A program made the position numbers and the translations under genes. Of a stretch of DNA of 64,000 nt, positions 30,805 to 63,551 are shown piece by piece. The number at the start of each line of letters is the position of its first letter. The stretch's first letter is position 1. The notes under the pieces are model-generated. The model saw only the letters and a list, made by a program, of their open reading frames with translations. It ran no database searches and was not told the origin of the DNA. Source of the DNA: Bacteroidales bacterium. Lineage in GTDB: Bacteria > Bacteroidota > Bacteroidia > Bacteroidales > UBA10428. The stretch spans positions 84,133 through 148,132 of the forward strand of contig JAFGVA010000121.1 in the NCBI GenBank assembly GCA_016938235.1, in the 5' to 3' direction.

Positions 30805-33800
30805 GTGAAGAAAATAATTTTTAAAATACTGATGCTCAGCATTACTGTTTCCCCCTTATTTGGGCAGGAATTTGCTGAAAACTCGATATTGAAATCTGGT
30901 AAATGGTATAAGATTAAAGTTGCCGGCACCGGAATTTATAAACTTAGTTATTCTGATATTAAGGAATTAGGTTTTGATACACCTGAAAATATCAGGATCT
31001 ATGGAAACATGGGCAGGCAATTATCCTATACAATCAACGGGAGTGGTATAGAATCTGATGATCTCGAAGAACTTCCAATATATTCTTCGGCATTGGCTGC
31101 AGATTTTGGTGAAGATGATTATTACCTGTTTTTTGCACAGGGTACAGAGAATTGGGTGTATAATGATTTCTGGAAGATGTTTGAACAGAGTTTAAGCTCC
31201 TATGCAACAGAAAATTATTATTACATAACAAGCAGTTTTGGTCCGGGCCAAAGAATAGAATCAATTGACTATTCTTCATTAGCATCAGATATTACAATAA
31301 CAACTTACAGATGGCGCGGCTACTACGAAGAAGAATTATATAACCTAATTAATTCTGGCAGGCAATGGTATGGTGAAAAATTTAATAATTCGGATTTTAG
31401 TTATACGTTTAATATAAAAAACCTCATTTCAGGGAATGAAGCATTAAAACTTAAGATTACTACTGCTTTACGTTCAGGATCTGCAAAAGATGTTTATTTT
31501 TCCTTAAACGATAACAGGTTCGACACTGTCCGTTATACTTCTGTAAATATTGAAGATATTGAATCGATTTATGCCAGGCCCGATCGTAGCTATTACATTC
31601 TTCCGGGTCAGAAAGAATCGTATAAGATAAACCTTAGTGCAGACAATCCCGGCACCGACTTTGAAGCCTATGTTGATCATATAACTCTCACTGCTGAGGC
31701 AGATCTTTCAATCACTTCCTATCCGTTTTTTTTCAGAACCACGGCAACTTTTATTAATGAAAATATTAATAATGCCACTTTTATTGTTAAAGAGGCTGCA
31801 TCAAACACCCAGGTTTGGGATGTTACAGATTTTAGCCGGGTGCATGCTTTAAAGGGAAGCTTATCTGGCAATACTTTTACATTTAAGACGCCAGTAGCTG
31901 ATTACCAGGAATTTGTTGCTGTAGATCCATCAAAATTATATCCTGCACCGATTTTTACCGATGAAGGCAGAAACGATCTGGGGTGGATTGATAATCAGAA
32001 TCTCCATGCTATGGAAATTCCCGAACTTCTGATTGTAACTCACCCATTATTTGTTGATCAGGCTAATGAACTGGCAGATTTGCACAGACAAAAAGATGCG
32101 ATGAAAGTTTCGGTTGTTAAAACAGATTTGATTTATAATGAATTTTCATCTGGTAAAGCTGATGCCTGTGCAATCCGGAATTTTGCCAGAATGCTTTATA
32201 CTCGTTCCGGTAATAATAAAACATTTAAGTACTTATTGCTTTTTGGCGATGGCACTTATGACAACCGGAATTACAACGTGAACAACACCAACTACATACC
32301 TACCTATCAGTCCATAGATTCAAGAAACCCCGGTATGAGCTATACTTCAGATGATTTATTCGGGATGCTTGAAGTTGGAGAATGGGTAGAATCGGGTACA
32401 TTAGATATTGGTGTAGGCAGGTTACCTGTAAAATGGAATGAATCGACCAAAGAGTATGAGGCTCAGAAAATGGTTGATAAAATAAAACTTTATTACGGCA
32501 GTTCCCTGATGAGAGATTGGAGAAACAACATTATTTTTCTGGCTGATGATGGCGAGAGCGGCTGGGACAGCACTGTTTTTATGAAGGATTCAGACATACT
32601 TACCGAAACAGTTAAACAGAAGGCTCCCGGCTTGAATATCAATAAAATATATCTTGATGCTTATACCCAGATTAGTTCTTCTACCGGTGCATCATATCCC
32701 GAAGTTGAAAAAGCAATTATTGAATCGTTCAAAAAAGGTGCATTGGTTTTTAATTACATGGGGCATGGTGGAGAAAATGGCATAACACAGGAAAAGGTTT
32801 TTCAAAAGACAGATATGGATAACCTGACAAATTCGCCCTATTTCCCATTGTTCATTACAGCAACTTGCCAGGTAAGCCGGTTCGATAATGTAATTAAAGA
32901 GGGAGACGTTTATTCAACCAAAGTTTCTGCTGGCGAAAGTGTGTTGTTGAATCCAAACGGTGGAGCAATAGCATTGTATACAACAACAAGAGTTGTTTAT
33001 CAGTCAAGCAATATGGCGCTAAGCGAAAGGTTATATGAGCATATGTTCGAAAAGGATGATAAGGGTAAGCGTTACAGGTTGGGAGATCTTTTCAGAATGG
33101 CAAAGAACGAGTCGGGTGGAGAAAACAAACTGAAATTTGCGCTGCTTGGTGATCCGGCTATCATGCTTCCTTATGGAGAATATATTGTTGTGGCCGATTC
33201 AATAAACCACAAATCTGTTGATGAATTGTCTGACTCCATCAGTGCACTTGAAAAAGTTACGGTTTCTGGTCATGTTGCTTATGATGACAGCACATTAATT
33301 TCTGATTTTAATGGAATAGTTCAGTTTAGTGTGTTTGATAAAGCGTATATTGTAACTACCCGAAGCAACGATGGGATACCCAAGATAGATTTTGAACTAC
33401 AGGACAAACTCTTATACAGGGGGAAAGCTTCCGTTATTAATGGATATTTTACAGCAGCGTTTATCGTTCCAAAAGATATTTCATATAATATTGGTGCAGG
33501 CAAAATGTCTTTCTATGCTCAAAATGGAATAATTGATGCTAAAGGATATACAAACGATTTTCTTATTGGAGGAACAAGCAGCGAATATGAAAATGATGTT
33601 TTTGGGCCAGATATACAGCTATATATGAATAATGAGTCATTTCAGGATGGAGGCATAACCAGTCCAAATCCGGTTTTCCTTGCTCATTTATTTGATGAAC
33701 ATGGAATAAATACCACCGGAAATGGTATTGGTCATGATTTATCGGCAGTGCTCGATGATGATTATATGAACATTTATAATCTGAATAATTTTTACGAAGG

Positions 33801-34269
33801 CAACCTGGATGACTACCAAAGGGGTGAGGTCAGGTATCCGCTGTCTGAACTTTCAAAAGGGCAACATACAATTAAACTTAAAGTTTGGGATAATTACAAT
33901 AATTCTGCAGAAGAAGAACTTAACTTTTATGTCGAAAACAGCAATCATGCAGTTATTGAAGATTTATTTAATTACCCGAACCCTATGAGCGATTACACCT
34001 ATTTTCAATATACCCATAATTTAGTCGGCGAACATACTATTGTGCTTGATGTGTTCGATCTTTCAGGAAAGAAAATATATACAGTGAACCGTACAAATTA
34101 CGAAGGCGGGTTTGTATCAACTCCCCTGGAGTATAATTTAACAACTTTGAACGGCGAGGGATTACAGCCTGGCGTTTACCCATACAGAATTACACTTAGA
34201 GTAACTCCGGATAATTCAATAAAAACATATGAAGCTATTGAGTCAAGCCGACTAATAATAATTCCCTAG
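30805..34269 (+). CDS. porU: Type IX secretion system sortase PorU
   Basis: 1154-residue gingipain-like (C25) cysteine protease on the outer-membrane surface that cuts the CTD signal from T9SS cargo and attaches it to lipopolysaccharide. It starts at a GTG; no ATG is available nearby. A signal peptide covers about 1-19. The catalytic pair is His654 (FNYMGHGGENG) and Cys688 (FITATCQVSRFDN). The C-terminal ~100 residues show an Ig-like FlgD-type domain (DLFNYPNPMSDYTYF, VFDLSGKKIYTV). PorU itself carries such a CTD-like end in known systems. Cotranscribed with porV. Confidence 0.94.
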   Translation: MKKIIFKILMLSITVSPLFGQEFAENSILKSGKWYKIKVAGTGIYKLSYSDIKELGFDTPENIRIYGNMGRQLSYTINGSGIESDDLEELPIYSSALAADFGEDDYYLFFAQGTENWVYNDFWKMFEQSLSSYATENYYYITSSFGPGQRIESIDYSSLASDITITTYRWRGYYEEELYNLINSGRQWYGEKFNNSDFSYTFNIKNLISGNEALKLKITTALRSGSAKDVYFSLNDNRFDTVRYTSVNIEDIESIYARPDRSYYILPGQKESYKINLSADNPGTDFEAYVDHITLTAEADLSITSYPFFFRTTATFINENINNATFIVKEAASNTQVWDVTDFSRVHALKGSLSGNTFTFKTPVADYQEFVAVDPSKLYPAPIFTDEGRNDLGWIDNQNLHAMEIPELLIVTHPLFVDQANELADLHRQKDAMKVSVVKTDLIYNEFSSGKADACAIRNFARMLYTRSGNNKTFKYLLLFGDGTYDNRNYNVNNTNYIPTYQSIDSRNPGMSYTSDDLFGMLEVGEWVESGTLDIGVGRLPVKWNESTKEYEAQKMVDKIKLYYGSSLMRDWRNNIIFLADDGESGWDSTVFMKDSDILTETVKQKAPGLNINKIYLDAYTQISSSTGASYPEVEKAIIESFKKGALVFNYMGHGGENGITQEKVFQKTDMDNLTNSPYFPLFITATCQVSRFDNVIKEGDVYSTKVSAGESVLLNPNGGAIALYTTTRVVYQSSNMALSERLYEHMFEKDDKGKRYRLGDLFRMAKNESGGENKLKFALLGDPAIMLPYGEYIVVADSINHKSVDELSDSISALEKVTVSGHVAYDDSTLISDFNGIVQFSVFDKAYIVTTRSNDGIPKIDFELQDKLLYRGKASVINGYFTAAFIVPKDISYNIGAGKMSFYAQNGIIDAKGYTNDFLIGGTSSEYENDVFGPDIQLYMNNESFQDGGITSPNPVFLAHLFDEHGINTTGNGIGHDLSAVLDDDYMNIYNLNNFYEGNLDDYQRGEVRYPLSELSKGQHTIKLKVWDNYNNSAEEELNFYVENSNHAVIEDLFNYPNPMSDYTYFQYTHNLVGEHTIVLDVFDLSGKKIYTVNRTNYEGGFVSTPLEYNLTTLNGEGLQPGVYPYRITLRVTPDNSIKTYEAIESSRLIIIP

Positions 34270-34320: not shown

Positions 34321-35478
34321 ATGAACATGTTAAAAAGAATAGTAATTGTTGTACTTGTTTTTGTTTTTGTAAATCAAGTTAAGGGTCAGACCGGCACTGA
34401 TGGAAGGGATGAAAACGCTCTTAACCCCATACGATCAGCTGTGCCGTTTCTTACTATTTCACCCGATTCAAAATCGGGTGCGCTTGGTGATGCAGGTGTT
34501 GCTACAGCTCCTGATTTAAGCTCACAGCACTGGAATGCATCGAAATACGTATTTATGAAAGAAAGATCGGGGGTTGCTTTGTCTTACACACCCTGGCTAA
34601 GAAGCCTTCAGGTAAACGATCTGAATTTACTCTATCTTTCCGGATATACAAATGTTGACAGGAAACAGGCAGTAAGTGGTTCAATTCGATATTTTAACCT
34701 GGGAGAGATAAACGAGGTATTGGAAGACGGAACTCCAACTTATAAGAAAATAAGACCTAATGAATATGCATTAGATATTGGATACTCAAGAAAATTTTCA
34801 GAATACTTTAGCGGAGGTTTGGTATTCCGTTACATTCGTTCCGATATTGCAAATGGTACCAGTGGTTTAGGCACAGGTAGCAACCAGGCAAGGTATGAGC
34901 CCGGTAATTCATTTGCGGCAGACATTACCACTTATTATCAAAGAGATATTAAGCTTCAGGGATATGACGGAGAAATGGCATATGGACTAAATATTTCTAA
35001 TATAGGTAACAAGATGGCCTATTCTCAAGATAAGGAAAGTCAGTTTATCCCGACAAATATGAGAATTGGTGGTCGTTTAAGTATCGATCTGGATTCTTAT
35101 AACAGTATTAGCGCTACCATGGATATTAATAAAATGTTAGTCCCAACTCCCAGCGATTCAGTCGATTTACAAACCATTGGGGTAATCGAAGGTATTTTTC
35201 AATCGTTTGGCGATGCCCCGGGTGGTGCAAAAGAAGAATTGAATGAAATAATGTGGAGCATTGGTACCGAGTACTGGTATATGAACCAATTTGCCATCAG
35301 AGCTGGCTATTTTCATGAGCATGCAAGTAAAGGAAACAGAAAATACTTTACTGCCGGTGTGGGTTTAATGTTAAATGTATTTTCATTAGATTTTTCATAT
35401 TTATTCCCGGCAACCGGAGGCAGAAGTAATCCATTGGCAAATACCATGCGATTTACGCTGGGATTCACATTTGAATAA
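34321..35478 (+). CDS. porV: Type IX secretion system outer-membrane protein PorV/LptO
   Basis: 385-residue FadL-like 14-strand barrel that shuttles T9SS cargo from the translocon to PorU. Signal peptide about 1-22, ending QVKGQ. The mature start ALNPIRSAVPFLTISPDSKSGALGDAGVATA is the family signature, and the end GGRSNPLANTMRFTLGFTFE is also typical. It follows porU with 51 bases between, and a long hairpin closes the unit at 35511-35567. Confidence 0.94.
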   Translation: MNMLKRIVIVVLVFVFVNQVKGQTGTDGRDENALNPIRSAVPFLTISPDSKSGALGDAGVATAPDLSSQHWNASKYVFMKERSGVALSYTPWLRSLQVNDLNLLYLSGYTNVDRKQAVSGSIRYFNLGEINEVLEDGTPTYKKIRPNEYALDIGYSRKFSEYFSGGLVFRYIRSDIANGTSGLGTGSNQARYEPGNSFAADITTYYQRDIKLQGYDGEMAYGLNISNIGNKMAYSQDKESQFIPTNMRIGGRLSIDLDSYNSISATMDINKMLVPTPSDSVDLQTIGVIEGIFQSFGDAPGGAKEELNEIMWSIGTEYWYMNQFAIRAGYFHEHASKGNRKYFTAGVGLMLNVFSLDFSYLFPATGGRSNPLANTMRFTLGFTFE

Positions 35479-50290: not shown

Positions 50291-52441
50291 ATGAAAATCA
50301 AAGCAATTCAGTTTTTAACAATTACAACAATTATGCTTTCAGCATGTAAAAAGGAAAGTGAGAAATTTCCGACTATTGAGCTTAATTATGTCGAAACTAA
50401 GGCAGATAGAGTTTTCGATGATTATTTCGGAGTAAAAATAGCTGATCCCTATCGCTGGCTTGAAGATGATCGTTCTGCGGAAACCATGGAATGGGTTAAA
50501 AAGCAAAATGAAGTGACCTTTGGGTATCTTGAGAAAATACCATTTCGTGAAACTGTAAGAAAAAGGTTGGACGAGCTTTCAAATTACGAACGTTTCGGAA
50601 TACCTTTCAGAAAGGGGAATAAATATTATTACTTTAAGAATACCGGATTACAGAACCAATCGGTAATGTACGTTACCAGGGATAAATCTGTGGAGGGAGA
50701 AGTATTTTTAGATCCGAATACTTTTTCTGAAGATGGATCTACTGCGCTTGGAACGATGAAGTTTACAGAAGACGGAAGTTTGGTTGCCTATACAATTTCT
50801 CCCGGTGGAGCCGACTGGCAGAACCTGGTTGTTATGAATGCGACAACCAAAGAAATGTTACCTGATACCATTCATGATGTGAAGTTTACAGGTATCTCCT
50901 GGAAAGGGAATGAAGGCTTCTATTATTCGAGATACGATAAACCAAAAGGAGCTACAGTTCTTACAGGTATGACCCAGCAACATAAAGTATATTACCATAA
51001 ATTAGGCACTCCCCAGAAAGACGATAAACCTGTTTTTGGTCATAAGGATATTCAAAGAAGGTATATCGGAGCATACAACTTTAAGAATTGTGATTACTTA
51101 TTTGTTGATGCAGCAGAAAGTACAAGCGGCAACGAAATATATTTCAGGAAAGATGATGGAAACAGCAGCTTTAAACCTGTTATTGAAGGATTTGAAGCAG
51201 ACAATTCTGTTCTTTATGCTAAAGGGGAGGAGTTTTATGTGCTTACGAATCTTGATGCGCCTAAAAAAAGAATAGCTAAAGCCAGTTTTAATAAACCATC
51301 TTCGAAAGATTGGGAAGATATTATTCCTGAGAAGGATGAGGTTATTGAATCGGCTTCGTTTGCCGGTGGATATATTTTTGTGGAATATCTGAAAGATGCT
51401 GCAAGCCAGATTATACAATACGATATGGAAGGTAATATGATAAGAACGGTTGAATTACCAACTATAGGTACTGCCAGTGGTTTTGATGGTGAAGACGAAG
51501 ACACTGAGGTTTTTTACAGCTTTGTTTCTTTTACTTTCCCGACAACAATATACTCCTATAAAATTGAATCGGGAGAATCGGAACTCTTCAGAGCACCCGA
51601 AATTACCGCTGATCTTAATCAGTACGAAACTAAACAGGTTTTCTACGAAAGCAAAGACGGAACAAAAGTGCCCATGTTTATTGTTGCCCGTAAAGGAATT
51701 AAACCAGATGGTTCAAATCCTACACTTCTGTATGGTTATGGAGGGTTTAATGTTAGTTACACACCATCATTTGGTCAACGTTGGTTCTCATGGCTCGATA
51801 TGGGCGGCGTATTTGCTCTTGCTAATATTCGAGGAGGTGGAGAATATGGAGAAGCATGGCATGAGGCAGGCACTAAAATGAAGAAACAAAATGTTTTTGA
51901 TGATTTTATTGCTGCTGCAGAATATTTACAAAAGGAAAATTACTGTTCAAAAGAAAAACTTACCATTTTAGGGGGTTCTAACGGTGGTCTGCTTGTTGGG
52001 GCAGTTATGACCCAAAGACCCGATTTAATGCAGGTGGCATTGCCGGCAGTAGGTGTTATGGATATGTTGCGATATCATAAATTTACTGCAGGTGCAGGCT
52101 GGATTTCAGACTATGGTTGTGCCGATAGCAGTAAAGCCATGTTTGAATATTTATTGGCTTATTCCCCTGTTCAGAATGTTAAAGAAGGTGTTGAATACCC
52201 TGCAACCATGGTAACTACAGCAGATCATGACGACCGGGTGGTGCCGGCTCATTCTTTTAAGTTTATATCGCAGCTTCAAAATAAGCAGGCAGGAGAACTT
52301 CCGGTTTTAATCAGGATTGCTGTTAATGCTGGTCATGGTGGAGGTATGGCAACATCAAAATACCTTGATGAATTAGCAGATATTTATTCTTTCGCCTTTT
52401 ACAATATGAATGAGTATCCAGTATATTATCAAAAGAAATAG
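50291..52441 (+). CDS. Prolyl oligopeptidase family serine peptidase, lipoprotein
   Basis: 716 residues, S9A family. A lipoprotein signal ends IMLSAC, lipid Cys19, unlike the cytoplasmic enzymes of the family. A seven-bladed propeller covers about 75-430; the catalytic domain follows. Ser563 lies in ILGGSNGGLLV, Asp in TADHDDRVVP and His in AVNAGHGGG. Cuts short peptides after proline; as a lipoprotein it would act in the periplasm or on the outer membrane. It is 20 bases upstream of the acyl-CoA synthetases. Confidence 0.93.
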   Translation: MKIKAIQFLTITTIMLSACKKESEKFPTIELNYVETKADRVFDDYFGVKIADPYRWLEDDRSAETMEWVKKQNEVTFGYLEKIPFRETVRKRLDELSNYERFGIPFRKGNKYYYFKNTGLQNQSVMYVTRDKSVEGEVFLDPNTFSEDGSTALGTMKFTEDGSLVAYTISPGGADWQNLVVMNATTKEMLPDTIHDVKFTGISWKGNEGFYYSRYDKPKGATVLTGMTQQHKVYYHKLGTPQKDDKPVFGHKDIQRRYIGAYNFKNCDYLFVDAAESTSGNEIYFRKDDGNSSFKPVIEGFEADNSVLYAKGEEFYVLTNLDAPKKRIAKASFNKPSSKDWEDIIPEKDEVIESASFAGGYIFVEYLKDAASQIIQYDMEGNMIRTVELPTIGTASGFDGEDEDTEVFYSFVSFTFPTTIYSYKIESGESELFRAPEITADLNQYETKQVFYESKDGTKVPMFIVARKGIKPDGSNPTLLYGYGGFNVSYTPSFGQRWFSWLDMGGVFALANIRGGGEYGEAWHEAGTKMKKQNVFDDFIAAAEYLQKENYCSKEKLTILGGSNGGLLVGAVMTQRPDLMQVALPAVGVMDMLRYHKFTAGAGWISDYGCADSSKAMFEYLLAYSPVQNVKEGVEYPATMVTTADHDDRVVPAHSFKFISQLQNKQAGELPVLIRIAVNAGHGGGMATSKYLDELADIYSFAFYNMNEYPVYYQKK

Positions 52442-60687: not shown

Positions 60688-62232
60688 ATGAAAAAAATTG
60701 ATCGTCGTTCTTTTTTGAGGACAACTTCAGCTGCCGGTGGCATGGTATTGGTTTCACCTTACCTCGATGGTGCTTGGTTTGTTCAATCAAATAAAGGATC
60801 CACAGGTTATTTCGAATCTGAGTTCGGAATTAGCATGGAAATGTGCCGGAAACTTTTGGAAACAGCCCTGATGAGAGGTGGAGATTTTGCTGATCTTTAC
60901 TTTGAACACACACTGAATAACTGGTTAATGCTTGAGGATGGTAAAGTCAACCAATCTTATGGCATTGTTAAATTAGGAGTAGGAATACGAACTGTAAAGG
61001 GAGATCAAATCGGGTATGGATATACCGAAGATCTTAGCGATGAAGCCATGCTTTCCGCAGCTAAAACAGCTTCCTCTCTTGTAACTGAAACCCAAACAAC
61101 GGTGGCTTCAGCTTTCACAAAACTTTCTGCAAAAAATTATTATCCTTTACAGAATCTGAATGAAGTTCCATTAACCGATAAACTTCCGTTAGTTCAAACA
61201 ATCAACACAAAGTGTTTTGAGAAGTCGGGCTATATAAAAAATGTAAGAGCCGGCTTTCATGACAGCATGAAGAGGATAATGGTTGTAACCAGCGATGGTT
61301 TAATAGCCGAAGATATTATACCGCGTAATTATCTGTATGCATCGGTTGTTGCCGAGAAAGACGGTAAGAACGAACAAAGCGGGTGGAACCTCGGCGGCCG
61401 ACATGACTTCTCGTATTATTCAACCGATGTTGCTGAAAATATTTCTGATGAAGTAGTAAAACGGGCAGTTAAACAATTTGATGCCATTCAGCCACCTGCC
61501 GGCGAAATGCCTGTGGTTCTTGGTCCGGGAGTTACCGGAATTTTATTGCACGAGGCAATTGGTCATGGAATGGAAGCAGATTTTAACCGCAAGAATATTT
61601 CAACATACAGTACAATGATTGGCAAAAAAGTAGCTGAACCTTTTGTTACTATTGTTGACGATGGTACGATAGATCAGCAACTGGGGTCAATAAACTTTGA
61701 TGACGAAGGAAGTCAAAGCCAGAGAACAGTGCTGGTAGAAAATGGTGTGATGACCAGTTATCTGCATGATAAAATATCAGCCAAATATTATGGTGTTAAA
61801 CCTACCGGAAACGGACGTCGTGAAAGTTATGAGCATCAGCCGGTTCCAAGAATGCGTAACACATATATGATGAGTGGTGATGAATCTCCCGAAGATGTGA
61901 TTAAAAAAGCTAAGAATGGTATTTATATCGAAGATGTAAGTAACGGGCAAGTGAAAATAGGAGAAGGTGATTTTGCCTTTTATGTCTCACAAGGACGAAT
62001 GATAGAAGATGGTAAATTAACAGCACCCATAAAAGACGTGAATATTATGGGCAACGGCCCAAAAATGCTTGCAAATATTACTGCGGTGGCAAATGATCTT
62101 AAAATACATGAAGGCGGAGCCGGTTCGTGCGGTAAAGCCGGGCAATCGGTTCCGGTATCGTTTGGATTACCGACTTGCCTTGTTAAGTCATTGACTGTAG
62201 GTGGAACTAAACAAATGGGAGGTGTATCATGA
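60688..62232 (+). CDS. tldD: TldD family metalloprotease with Tat signal
   Basis: 514 residues, zinc peptidase of the TldD/PmbA family. The N-terminus IDRRSFLRTTSAAGGMVLV is a canonical twin-arginine signal, and the remaining part is the usual TldD fold. The metal site HEAIGH is at residues 288-293. E. coli TldD/TldE form a cytoplasmic heterodimer that digests unfolded peptides and trims microcin B17 and CcdA. Here the enzyme should be exported. The stop overlaps the tldE start (ATGA). Confidence 0.93.
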   Translation: MKKIDRRSFLRTTSAAGGMVLVSPYLDGAWFVQSNKGSTGYFESEFGISMEMCRKLLETALMRGGDFADLYFEHTLNNWLMLEDGKVNQSYGIVKLGVGIRTVKGDQIGYGYTEDLSDEAMLSAAKTASSLVTETQTTVASAFTKLSAKNYYPLQNLNEVPLTDKLPLVQTINTKCFEKSGYIKNVRAGFHDSMKRIMVVTSDGLIAEDIIPRNYLYASVVAEKDGKNEQSGWNLGGRHDFSYYSTDVAENISDEVVKRAVKQFDAIQPPAGEMPVVLGPGVTGILLHEAIGHGMEADFNRKNISTYSTMIGKKVAEPFVTIVDDGTIDQQLGSINFDDEGSQSQRTVLVENGVMTSYLHDKISAKYYGVKPTGNGRRESYEHQPVPRMRNTYMMSGDESPEDVIKKAKNGIYIEDVSNGQVKIGEGDFAFYVSQGRMIEDGKLTAPIKDVNIMGNGPKMLANITAVANDLKIHEGGAGSCGKAGQSVPVSFGLPTCLVKSLTVGGTKQMGGVS

Positions 62233-63551
62233 ACAAGGAAATGCTGGACCTTTGTAATTGGATAATGGATGAAACGCTAAAAAACGGCGCATCCGATTGT
62301 AAGGTTAGTCTGAATAAAAGACGTATTGTTGAGATTAACTACCGGAAACAAAAGCCGGAATCAATAAAAGAAGCAACCACCAGGAGTTTAAGTCTTGATG
62401 TATATCTGGACGGTAAATTTGCTGTTCAATCAACCCCGGATCTAAGGAAGACTTCGTTGGAAACATTTATAAAAAAAGCATGCGAAAATGCTAAGTATAT
62501 CGAAGCAGATCCATACAGAACTTTGCCTGGCAAAGATTTAATTAAAGGCAAACAGGATATTGATCTTGAACTATATGACAATAGGGTTAAAGATTTTGCG
62601 CCTGACTTAAAACATAAAATGGTACAGGAAATCGAAGAGGCTTGTATTAATAAAGGTGGCGATAAGGTAATTTCTGTTGAAGCCGGTGCAGAGTTTTCCG
62701 AGGATGAAAATCTTGAGGTAGCCAGTAACGGACTGGTAAATTCAACCCAAAAAACCTCGGTTTGGATTGGGGCTTCTATGGCCGCCCAGGATGAAGGAGA
62801 CAGAAGGCCAAACGGATACCATTGGGCAGGTGCCCGGTATTTAAACGATTTGCCAAAAACAAGTGATGTTGGTATAAAGGCTGCTGAGCGCACCCTGGAG
62901 CTACTTGGTGGAAAGAAAATGCCAACCGAAAAGTTGCCGGTTATTATTGAAAACAGGGTGGCAAACAGGCTCCTTAATGGCTTTATAGCCGGGATGAACG
63001 GAGGAAACATTCAACAACAACGTTCCTTTCTGGCGGATAAAAAGGGAGAGGTAGTGGCCAGTCCAAAGTTAAGCCTTATCGACGATCCATTTGTTAAGAA
63101 AGGCTTTGGAAGTCGTCTTGTTGATGGCGATGGTCTCCCTGCCCGGAAAAGAATAATGCTTGATCAGGGAAAGGTTGAAGAATTCTTTATCGATTGGTAT
63201 TACAGTCGGAAAATGGAATGCCAACCCACTACCGGAGGTGCTTCTAACCTGATTTTGAAGCCGGGAGAAAAATCTCTTGAAGACCTTATGAAAGATACAG
63301 GCAGAGGAATTCTGGTTACAGGTTTTATTGGAGGTAATTCAAACTCAACAACTGGCGACTTTTCAATTGGAATTATTGGGCACTTATTCGAAAATGGTGT
63401 TCCTGTGCAGGCTATTGCCGAGATGAATATCGCTGATAATCATCTGGAGTTCTGGAAAAAACTTGCCGATGTTGGTAATGATCCCTGGAAATACAGCAGC
63501 TGGAATATCCCCAGTCTTTTATTTGACGACATTGTTGTTGCAGGGGTATAG
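62229..63551 (+). CDS. tldE: TldE/PmbA family protein, partner of TldD
   Basis: 440 residues of the PmbA/TldE type. It lacks the HExxxH site at the position where TldD has it (VIIENRVANRLLNGFIAGMNG), as expected for the non-catalytic subunit. No signal peptide. Overlaps tldD by four bases, which points to coupled translation and a heterodimer. Confidence 0.92.
   Translation: MNKEMLDLCNWIMDETLKNGASDCKVSLNKRRIVEINYRKQKPESIKEATTRSLSLDVYLDGKFAVQSTPDLRKTSLETFIKKACENAKYIEADPYRTLPGKDLIKGKQDIDLELYDNRVKDFAPDLKHKMVQEIEEACINKGGDKVISVEAGAEFSEDENLEVASNGLVNSTQKTSVWIGASMAAQDEGDRRPNGYHWAGARYLNDLPKTSDVGIKAAERTLELLGGKKMPTEKLPVIIENRVANRLLNGFIAGMNGGNIQQQRSFLADKKGEVVASPKLSLIDDPFVKKGFGSRLVDGDGLPARKRIMLDQGKVEEFFIDWYYSRKMECQPTTGGASNLILKPGEKSLEDLMKDTGRGILVTGFIGGNSNSTTGDFSIGIIGHLFENGVPVQAIAEMNIADNHLEFWKKLADVGNDPWKYSSWNIPSLLFDDIVVAGV

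Follow-up and report, generated by a model that had tools for sequence, protein, structure and literature searches.

A TldD/TldE peptidase pair of Bacteroidales with a Tat leader on TldD alone: a candidate for joint export of a folded heterodimer

The closest described relatives are the Escherichia coli proteins TldD and TldE (PmbA) (MEROPS M103; structure 5NJ5), an intracellular enzyme. In the excerpts available of the study of this pair, both subunits were required, only TldD bound metal, with Cys454 as the third metal ligand, and the complex was stable in high salt, with ~2,600 square angstroms buried and a width of ~65 angstroms, while TldE homologues (1VPB and others) homodimerised alone (PMC5810440). 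A second precedent is provided by the E. coli redox enzymes PaoABC and HybOC, in which one subunit carries a Tat leader and the partner or partners have none; for PaoABC, Tat hitchhiking of the leaderless subunits has been proven, and the leader-bearing subunit waits for its partners (PMC4273604, in excerpt).

The window, that is, the whole 64,000-nucleotide stretch of Bacteroidales DNA that was analysed, contained a tldD gene and a tldE gene overlapping by 4 bases (ATGA, comprising the ATG of tldE and the TGA of tldD). The N-terminal sequences of the two products were MKKIDRRSFLRTTSAAGGMVLVSPYLDGAWF for TldD and MNKEMLDLCNWIMDE for TldE, the latter going straight into the first domain. Three TldD/PmbA domains were found in each protein, all above the curated Pfam cut-offs, and profile searches of the genome with PF01523 and with PF19289 yielded these two proteins and no other match. 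Scores against the NCBIfam equivalogs of the E. coli proteins were 395.5 bits for TldD (NF008006; cut-off, 513) and 177.5 bits for TldE (NF008268, PmbA; cut-off, 438), so that both proteins are family members and not strict equivalents of the E. coli pair. The layout given in the original prediction, with a Tat leader on TldD, none on TldE, and overlapping genes, was borne out at positions 60688 to 63551 by the open reading frames, the domains and the leader tests described below (Table 1).

Table 1. Positions in the window of the features of the tldD/tldE locus, and lone TldD-like loci in other genomes
Feature	Position or locus	Strand	Evidence
TldD, catalytic subunit, 514 aa including leader	60688-62232	+	Pfam PF01523/PF19290/PF19289
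Tat leader, TldD residues 1-28	60688-60771	+	Motif rule, codon pattern, AlphaFold
Twin Arg of leader	60703-60708	+	Motif
HEAIGH metal motif (HExxxH), TldD residues 288-293	61549-61566	+	Alignment to E. coli HEAVGH
Cys481 of TldD, counterpart of E. coli Cys454, third metal ligand	62128-62130	+	Alignment with 5nj5_A
TldE, non-catalytic partner, 440 aa, leaderless	62229-63551	+	ORF and Pfam
Lone TldD-like loci	L016, L018, L020, L022, L024, L026, L072, L074, L075, L077, L079, L082, L085		

The window pair shared with the E. coli pair its fold, its domains, the HExxxH and Cys ligands, and a non-catalytic TldE partner. TldD matched E. coli TldD (5nj5_A) with an E value of 9e-102 (phmmer), and its AlphaFold model, with a mean pLDDT of 80.2, superposed on the same chain with an rmsd of 2.0 and a TMt of 0.92 (Foldseek). 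The metal-binding residues H288, E289, and H293 were invariant across 12 aligned TldD sequences, and Cys481 was invariant in the aligned set of window-type TldDs (class A, defined below). The HEAIGH motif was absent from the window TldE, leaving HExxxH in TldD alone of the pair. The best solved relative of TldE was 1vpb (E value, 9e-91), a structure titled BT3649 from Bacteroides thetaiotaomicron. The differences from the E. coli pair lay in the overlap of the genes and in the N terminus of TldD, where the alignment with the E. coli enzyme started only at window residue 62, with no counterpart of the leader.

The leader, close to the N terminus, consisted of DRRSFLR plus TTSAAGGMVLVSPYL, a twin-arginine motif and then a modest h-region that stopped near PYLDG; by eye, neither a lipobox Cys nor a clear signal peptidase I site was seen. 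Residues 1 to 38 had pLDDT values of <50 and lay outside the confident AlphaFold fold. When a strict Tat rule was applied, requiring RR-x-F and a hydrophobic stretch free of charges, the TldD leader was the sole pass among the 76 frames of the window (stop to stop, at least 100 aa); when the residues of the leader were shuffled 200,000 times, 53 of the shuffles passed. Across the first 30 codons of the window gene and five relatives, differences amounted to 0.36, 0.16, and 0.56 at codon positions 1, 2, and 3, respectively, and among the 252 codon pairs encoding the same residue, 139 used different codons; the low rate at position 2, the high rate at position 3, and the synonymous variation together make the leader look translated and selected. 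These findings bear on a concern raised with the original prediction, namely, that the true TldD start lies past the leader. The start might then be Met19 or Met50, for instance, with the leader an annotation artefact. In-frame ATG codons do occur past the leader, but conservation of its amino acid sequence across 40 of the 57 class A ORFs, with synonymous variation, and the rarity of chance passes in the shuffles make such a start extremely improbable.

The distribution of the leader was surveyed by searches of 296 genomes of the phylum, 40 of relatives, and 247 of the order, which partly overlapped, and the TldDs found were assigned to classes by profile scores and by our own motif rules. 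Among the 57 ORFs of class A, the window-type TldDs, 40 had a clear leader, 14 were leaderless, 2 were cut off, and 1 (G407) was ambiguous, with the motif present, no in-frame upstream start codon, and a run of N after the motif. Four partial ORFs were kept out of the classes, two of which (L058 and L059) were N-terminal TldD pieces with leaders. In a second sample, comprising named genomes (the best 80 of 588 relatives), the leader was present in 23 of the 80 under the rule used; the leader-bearers included Bacteroides cellulosilyticus, Parabacteroides distasonis, P. faecis, a Carboxylicivirga, and a Labilibaculum, and further ones came from metagenome-assembled records titled Aminicenantes, Marinimicrobia, Planctomycetales, and Myxococcales (labels as titled). 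The combination of a leader-bearing TldD with a leaderless TldE is real, and the emphasis of the original prediction needs one correction: the arrangement recurs in many relatives and is no peculiarity of one genome.

Many of the leaders also carried a cysteine. Among 61 class A TldDs with leaders (40 taken from the first sample and 21 nonduplicates from the second), 33 had a Cys 15 to 33 residues past RR, and 27 had a strict lipobox-like pattern (e.g., LHSC, LISC, or LAGC). Cys occupied 31 of 610 positions between RR+20 and RR+29, versus 127 of 23,790 positions in the mature part. A lipobox serves only after export, in lipoprotein processing, so its occurrence in 27 of 61 leaders is an argument for export that does not depend on the RR motif. 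One genome (G482) held two window-type TldD/TldE pairs (loci L102 and L117), both with a Tat leader and a lipobox-like Cys.

Alternatively, the leader might go unused for export, as a fossil or a membrane tether, with the complex remaining cytoplasmic as in E. coli. The lack of a clear cleavage site in the window protein would fit this explanation, as would the 14 leaderless proteins among the 57 class A TldDs (with TldE adjacent in 6, not adjacent in 7, and not assignable in 1) and the loss of one Arg of the motif in an Aminicenantes-titled relative. That relative (L214:101-1627; 64% identical in the best segment) has SGRSF in place of RRSF, possibly through a recent loss of the twin arginine. 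On the other side, RR and F were invariant in the aligned TldDs, a set itself picked for having leaders, the leader codons showed a pattern of selection, lipobox-like Cys residues were frequent as counted above, and Tat machinery is encoded in the genome. Taken together, an unused leader seems very unlikely.

TldE showed no sign of a leader of its own. The longest possible start of the window TldE adds only 5 residues before the first domain, leaving no room for one. At their usual starts, none of 55 class A TldEs, partners of leaderless TldDs included, had a leader; the highest 12-residue hydropathy near the N terminus was 1.29, and a single chance RR was seen. None of the 23 TldE partners of the leader-bearing TldDs in the second sample had a leader either (maximum hydropathy, 1.24). 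When the longest starts were read, 3 of the 55 TldEs (L100, L120, and L131) gained a hydrophobic stretch and 6 gained an RR; these readings were set aside because they extend back over tldD.

The same asymmetry was found in class B, the long TldDs (frames of ~525 to 595 aa), which were ~23 to 31% identical to the window TldD and in some clusters occurred in several copies. As in the window pair, a Tat-type leader was present on TldD (45 of 45, with RK and not RR in 9) and absent from TldE (0 of 38; maximum hydropathy, 1.18). The nine RK leaders (e.g., KRKDF; L033, L139, L141, L142, L147, L149, L150, and L152) came from genomes with TatC. By eye, no lipobox was noticed in the class B leaders listed, unlike in many of class A.

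Class C comprised Sec-routed pairs of Bacteroidota, which resembled the window pair in the C-terminal domain, in having HExxxH in one partner, and in being encoded by neighbouring genes, but which were longer (~560 to 690 aa) and bore a signal on both partners. A hydrophobic signal was present on all 29 HExxxH members (minimum, 1.80) and on all 20 partners (minimum, 1.74); the partners were identified through weak matches, and those of the other HExxxH members were missed or lay beyond the stretch fetched. In the two class C pairs tested, both partners contained the C-terminal TldD/PmbA domain (Pfam). A loose RR pattern also flagged the Sec-type leaders of L168, L184, and L187, which stayed in the Sec tallies as signals of their own. 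So did that of L166, a partner protein of the Sec class whose leader (TTRRTFAFALVAATLLAPLASMAQ) is Tat-like and whose TldD-like neighbour has a Sec signal. One leader per pair on the Tat route and two signals per pair on the Sec route are what hitchhiking predicts, given that Tat would carry a folded pair and Sec unfolded chains.

Gene order was examined for its bearing on whether TldE travels with TldD. Each of the 40 class A TldDs with a leader, and also G407, had TldE immediately downstream (gap of -4 to +149 bases), and in both samples together TldE directly followed TldD in 62 of 62 leader-bearing versus 38 of 64 leaderless rows (Fisher p, 1.3e-9). In a tree of 129 rows built by a quick method, the leader state changed 14 times, at least 9 of them on well-supported branches, and among 9 independent pairs adjacency differed in ~2.3, never in the opposite direction, with a median p of 0.5; a 55-row tree gave 4 independent pairs and p values of 0.125 to 0.5. 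For the combined tree, 6 of the 80 second-sample rows were dropped (L197, L200, and L203 as duplicates, L214 for its degenerate motif, and L225 and L245 as 5'-cut), the adjacency state was lacking for three rows (G530, L262, and L275), L268, with a frame extending past the 5' end of its contig, was scored as leaderless, and G407 was scored as leader-bearing. Since the independent-pair tests were nonsignificant, relatedness can account for the raw association; as a test of co-export, adjacency was therefore rejected despite the large raw count and was retained as supportive only.

Export of TldD alone, as a periplasmic homodimer, with TldE remaining in the cytoplasm in another role, was weighed against these results. 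Such an arrangement would accord with the restriction of the catalytic residues to TldD, seen in our alignment and in E. coli, with a reported active archaeal TldD homodimer, and with the TldE homodimers found in crystals (for E. coli and the homodimers, PMC5810440 or work cited there, in excerpt). Given such homodimers, a TldE lacking its TldD could still be maintained in the cytoplasm. It would also accord with lone TldD-like genes, which had a single PF19289 match and no second one in the 13 genomes examined (Table 1) and which suggest that TldE is dispensable to some TldDs. None of these lone genes, however, had a convincing Tat leader (11 had no motif and 2 a loose one), TldE adjoined the leader-bearing TldD in every one of the 62 rows, and the TldD-like proteins routed through Sec were paired with a partner bearing its own signal. 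Moreover, the phylum sample included 9 leader-bearing class A genomes, and in 7 of them no PF19289 match existed apart from the two of the pair, so that a TldE left behind would be partnerless, with no cytoplasmic TldD. Export of TldD by itself is accordingly regarded as unlikely.

The search for tatA and tatC proposed with the original prediction was positive, with TatC and two TatA/B/E-type matches found in the genome by profile searches. Co-occurrence of the leader with TatC was also tried as a test and discarded as uninformative, since TatC was present in 77 of 80 and 45 of 47 of the genomes searched, leaderless-TldD genomes included, and such near-universality leaves nothing for co-occurrence to test. 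The suggestion of modified-peptide processing, with peptide-natural-product genes nearby, found no support: YcaO had no match in the whole genome, and no peptide-natural-product enzymes were detected (Pfam/NCBIfam) among the 19 neighbouring proteins scanned, from a window total of 54 frames of at least 150 aa. Other genes in the window included a PorU-like C25 peptidase gene (30805-34269) adjoining porV (34321-35478), type IX secretion genes ~25 kb from the pair; a prolyl oligopeptidase (S9) gene (50291-52441), whose product has a lipoprotein-like leader ending in MLSAC; and a gene for a DUF3108 protein immediately upstream of the tldD/tldE pair. These neighbours are consistent, no more than loosely, with envelope peptide turnover.

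The stability and buried interface of the E. coli pair, together with hitchhiking in PaoABC (PMC5810440 and PMC4273604, in excerpt), make cytoplasmic pairing followed by joint export the simplest reading. From the sequences, we infer the following course. TldD and TldE, made from overlapping genes, would fold and pair in the cytoplasm, where TldD would also acquire its metal. The leader on TldD alone would then send the folded pair through the inner membrane by Tat, with TldE as a hitchhiker. In many relatives, TldD may subsequently be lipidated at the lipobox-like Cys, tying the enzyme to a periplasm-facing membrane, and in the window protein, which has no such Cys, the leader may either be cleaved at another site or stay in place. 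In the latter case, it would serve as an anchor. Once exported, the hollow dimer would trim unfolded peptides in the periplasm with no preference for particular sequences, an activity that the E. coli enzyme exerts inside the cell. We think it probable that the pair is exported in this way, as a preassembled and often lipid-anchored periplasmic peptidase. The passenger role that the original prediction gave to TldE gained support from the leaderless TldE beside a Tat-leader TldD, the two-signal Sec pairs, the 62 of 62 adjacency, and the lipobox, all of which point indirectly to export of TldE. We favour, with somewhat less assurance, a broader view in which repeated gain or loss of the leader moves the whole prefolded heterodimer between compartments, TldE never having gained a leader in the pairs examined. 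Compared with the redox enzymes PaoABC and HybOC, the pair described here differs in being a putative peptidase heterodimer of two paralogous subunits, whose hitchhiking we infer from the genes.

TldD/TldE and Tat hitchhiking are each known, and their combination was not found in print in the literature searched. Among the papers listed on the TldD/TldE pair, on the family in relation to the periplasm or to Bacteroid species, on 1VPB, and on Bacteroid Tat substrates, no title or abstract opening concerned an exported TldD, and where TldD or PmbA and “twin-arginine” occurred together, the terms were unrelated in the portions of text available; no localisation data, and no paper on BT3649 or BT3648, were found. 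The family review of Vobruba et al. 2022 (cited in PMC10885120), according to whose title the family reportedly also contains N-deacetylases, might mention such a protein. If the proposed export is correct, a family that is widespread in bacteria and has been studied as an intracellular peptidase would also work in the periplasm, for example in the gut genera Bacteroides and Parabacteroides. The pair would add to the known Tat hitchhikers one unlike the redox examples, and the contrast with the two-signal Sec pairs would allow the rule that Tat transports complexes in folded form to be read directly in genome sequences. In addition, 1VPB (BT3649) may then represent an exported subunit that was crystallised without its partner, the leader having been seen in B. 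cellulosilyticus, another Bacteroides.
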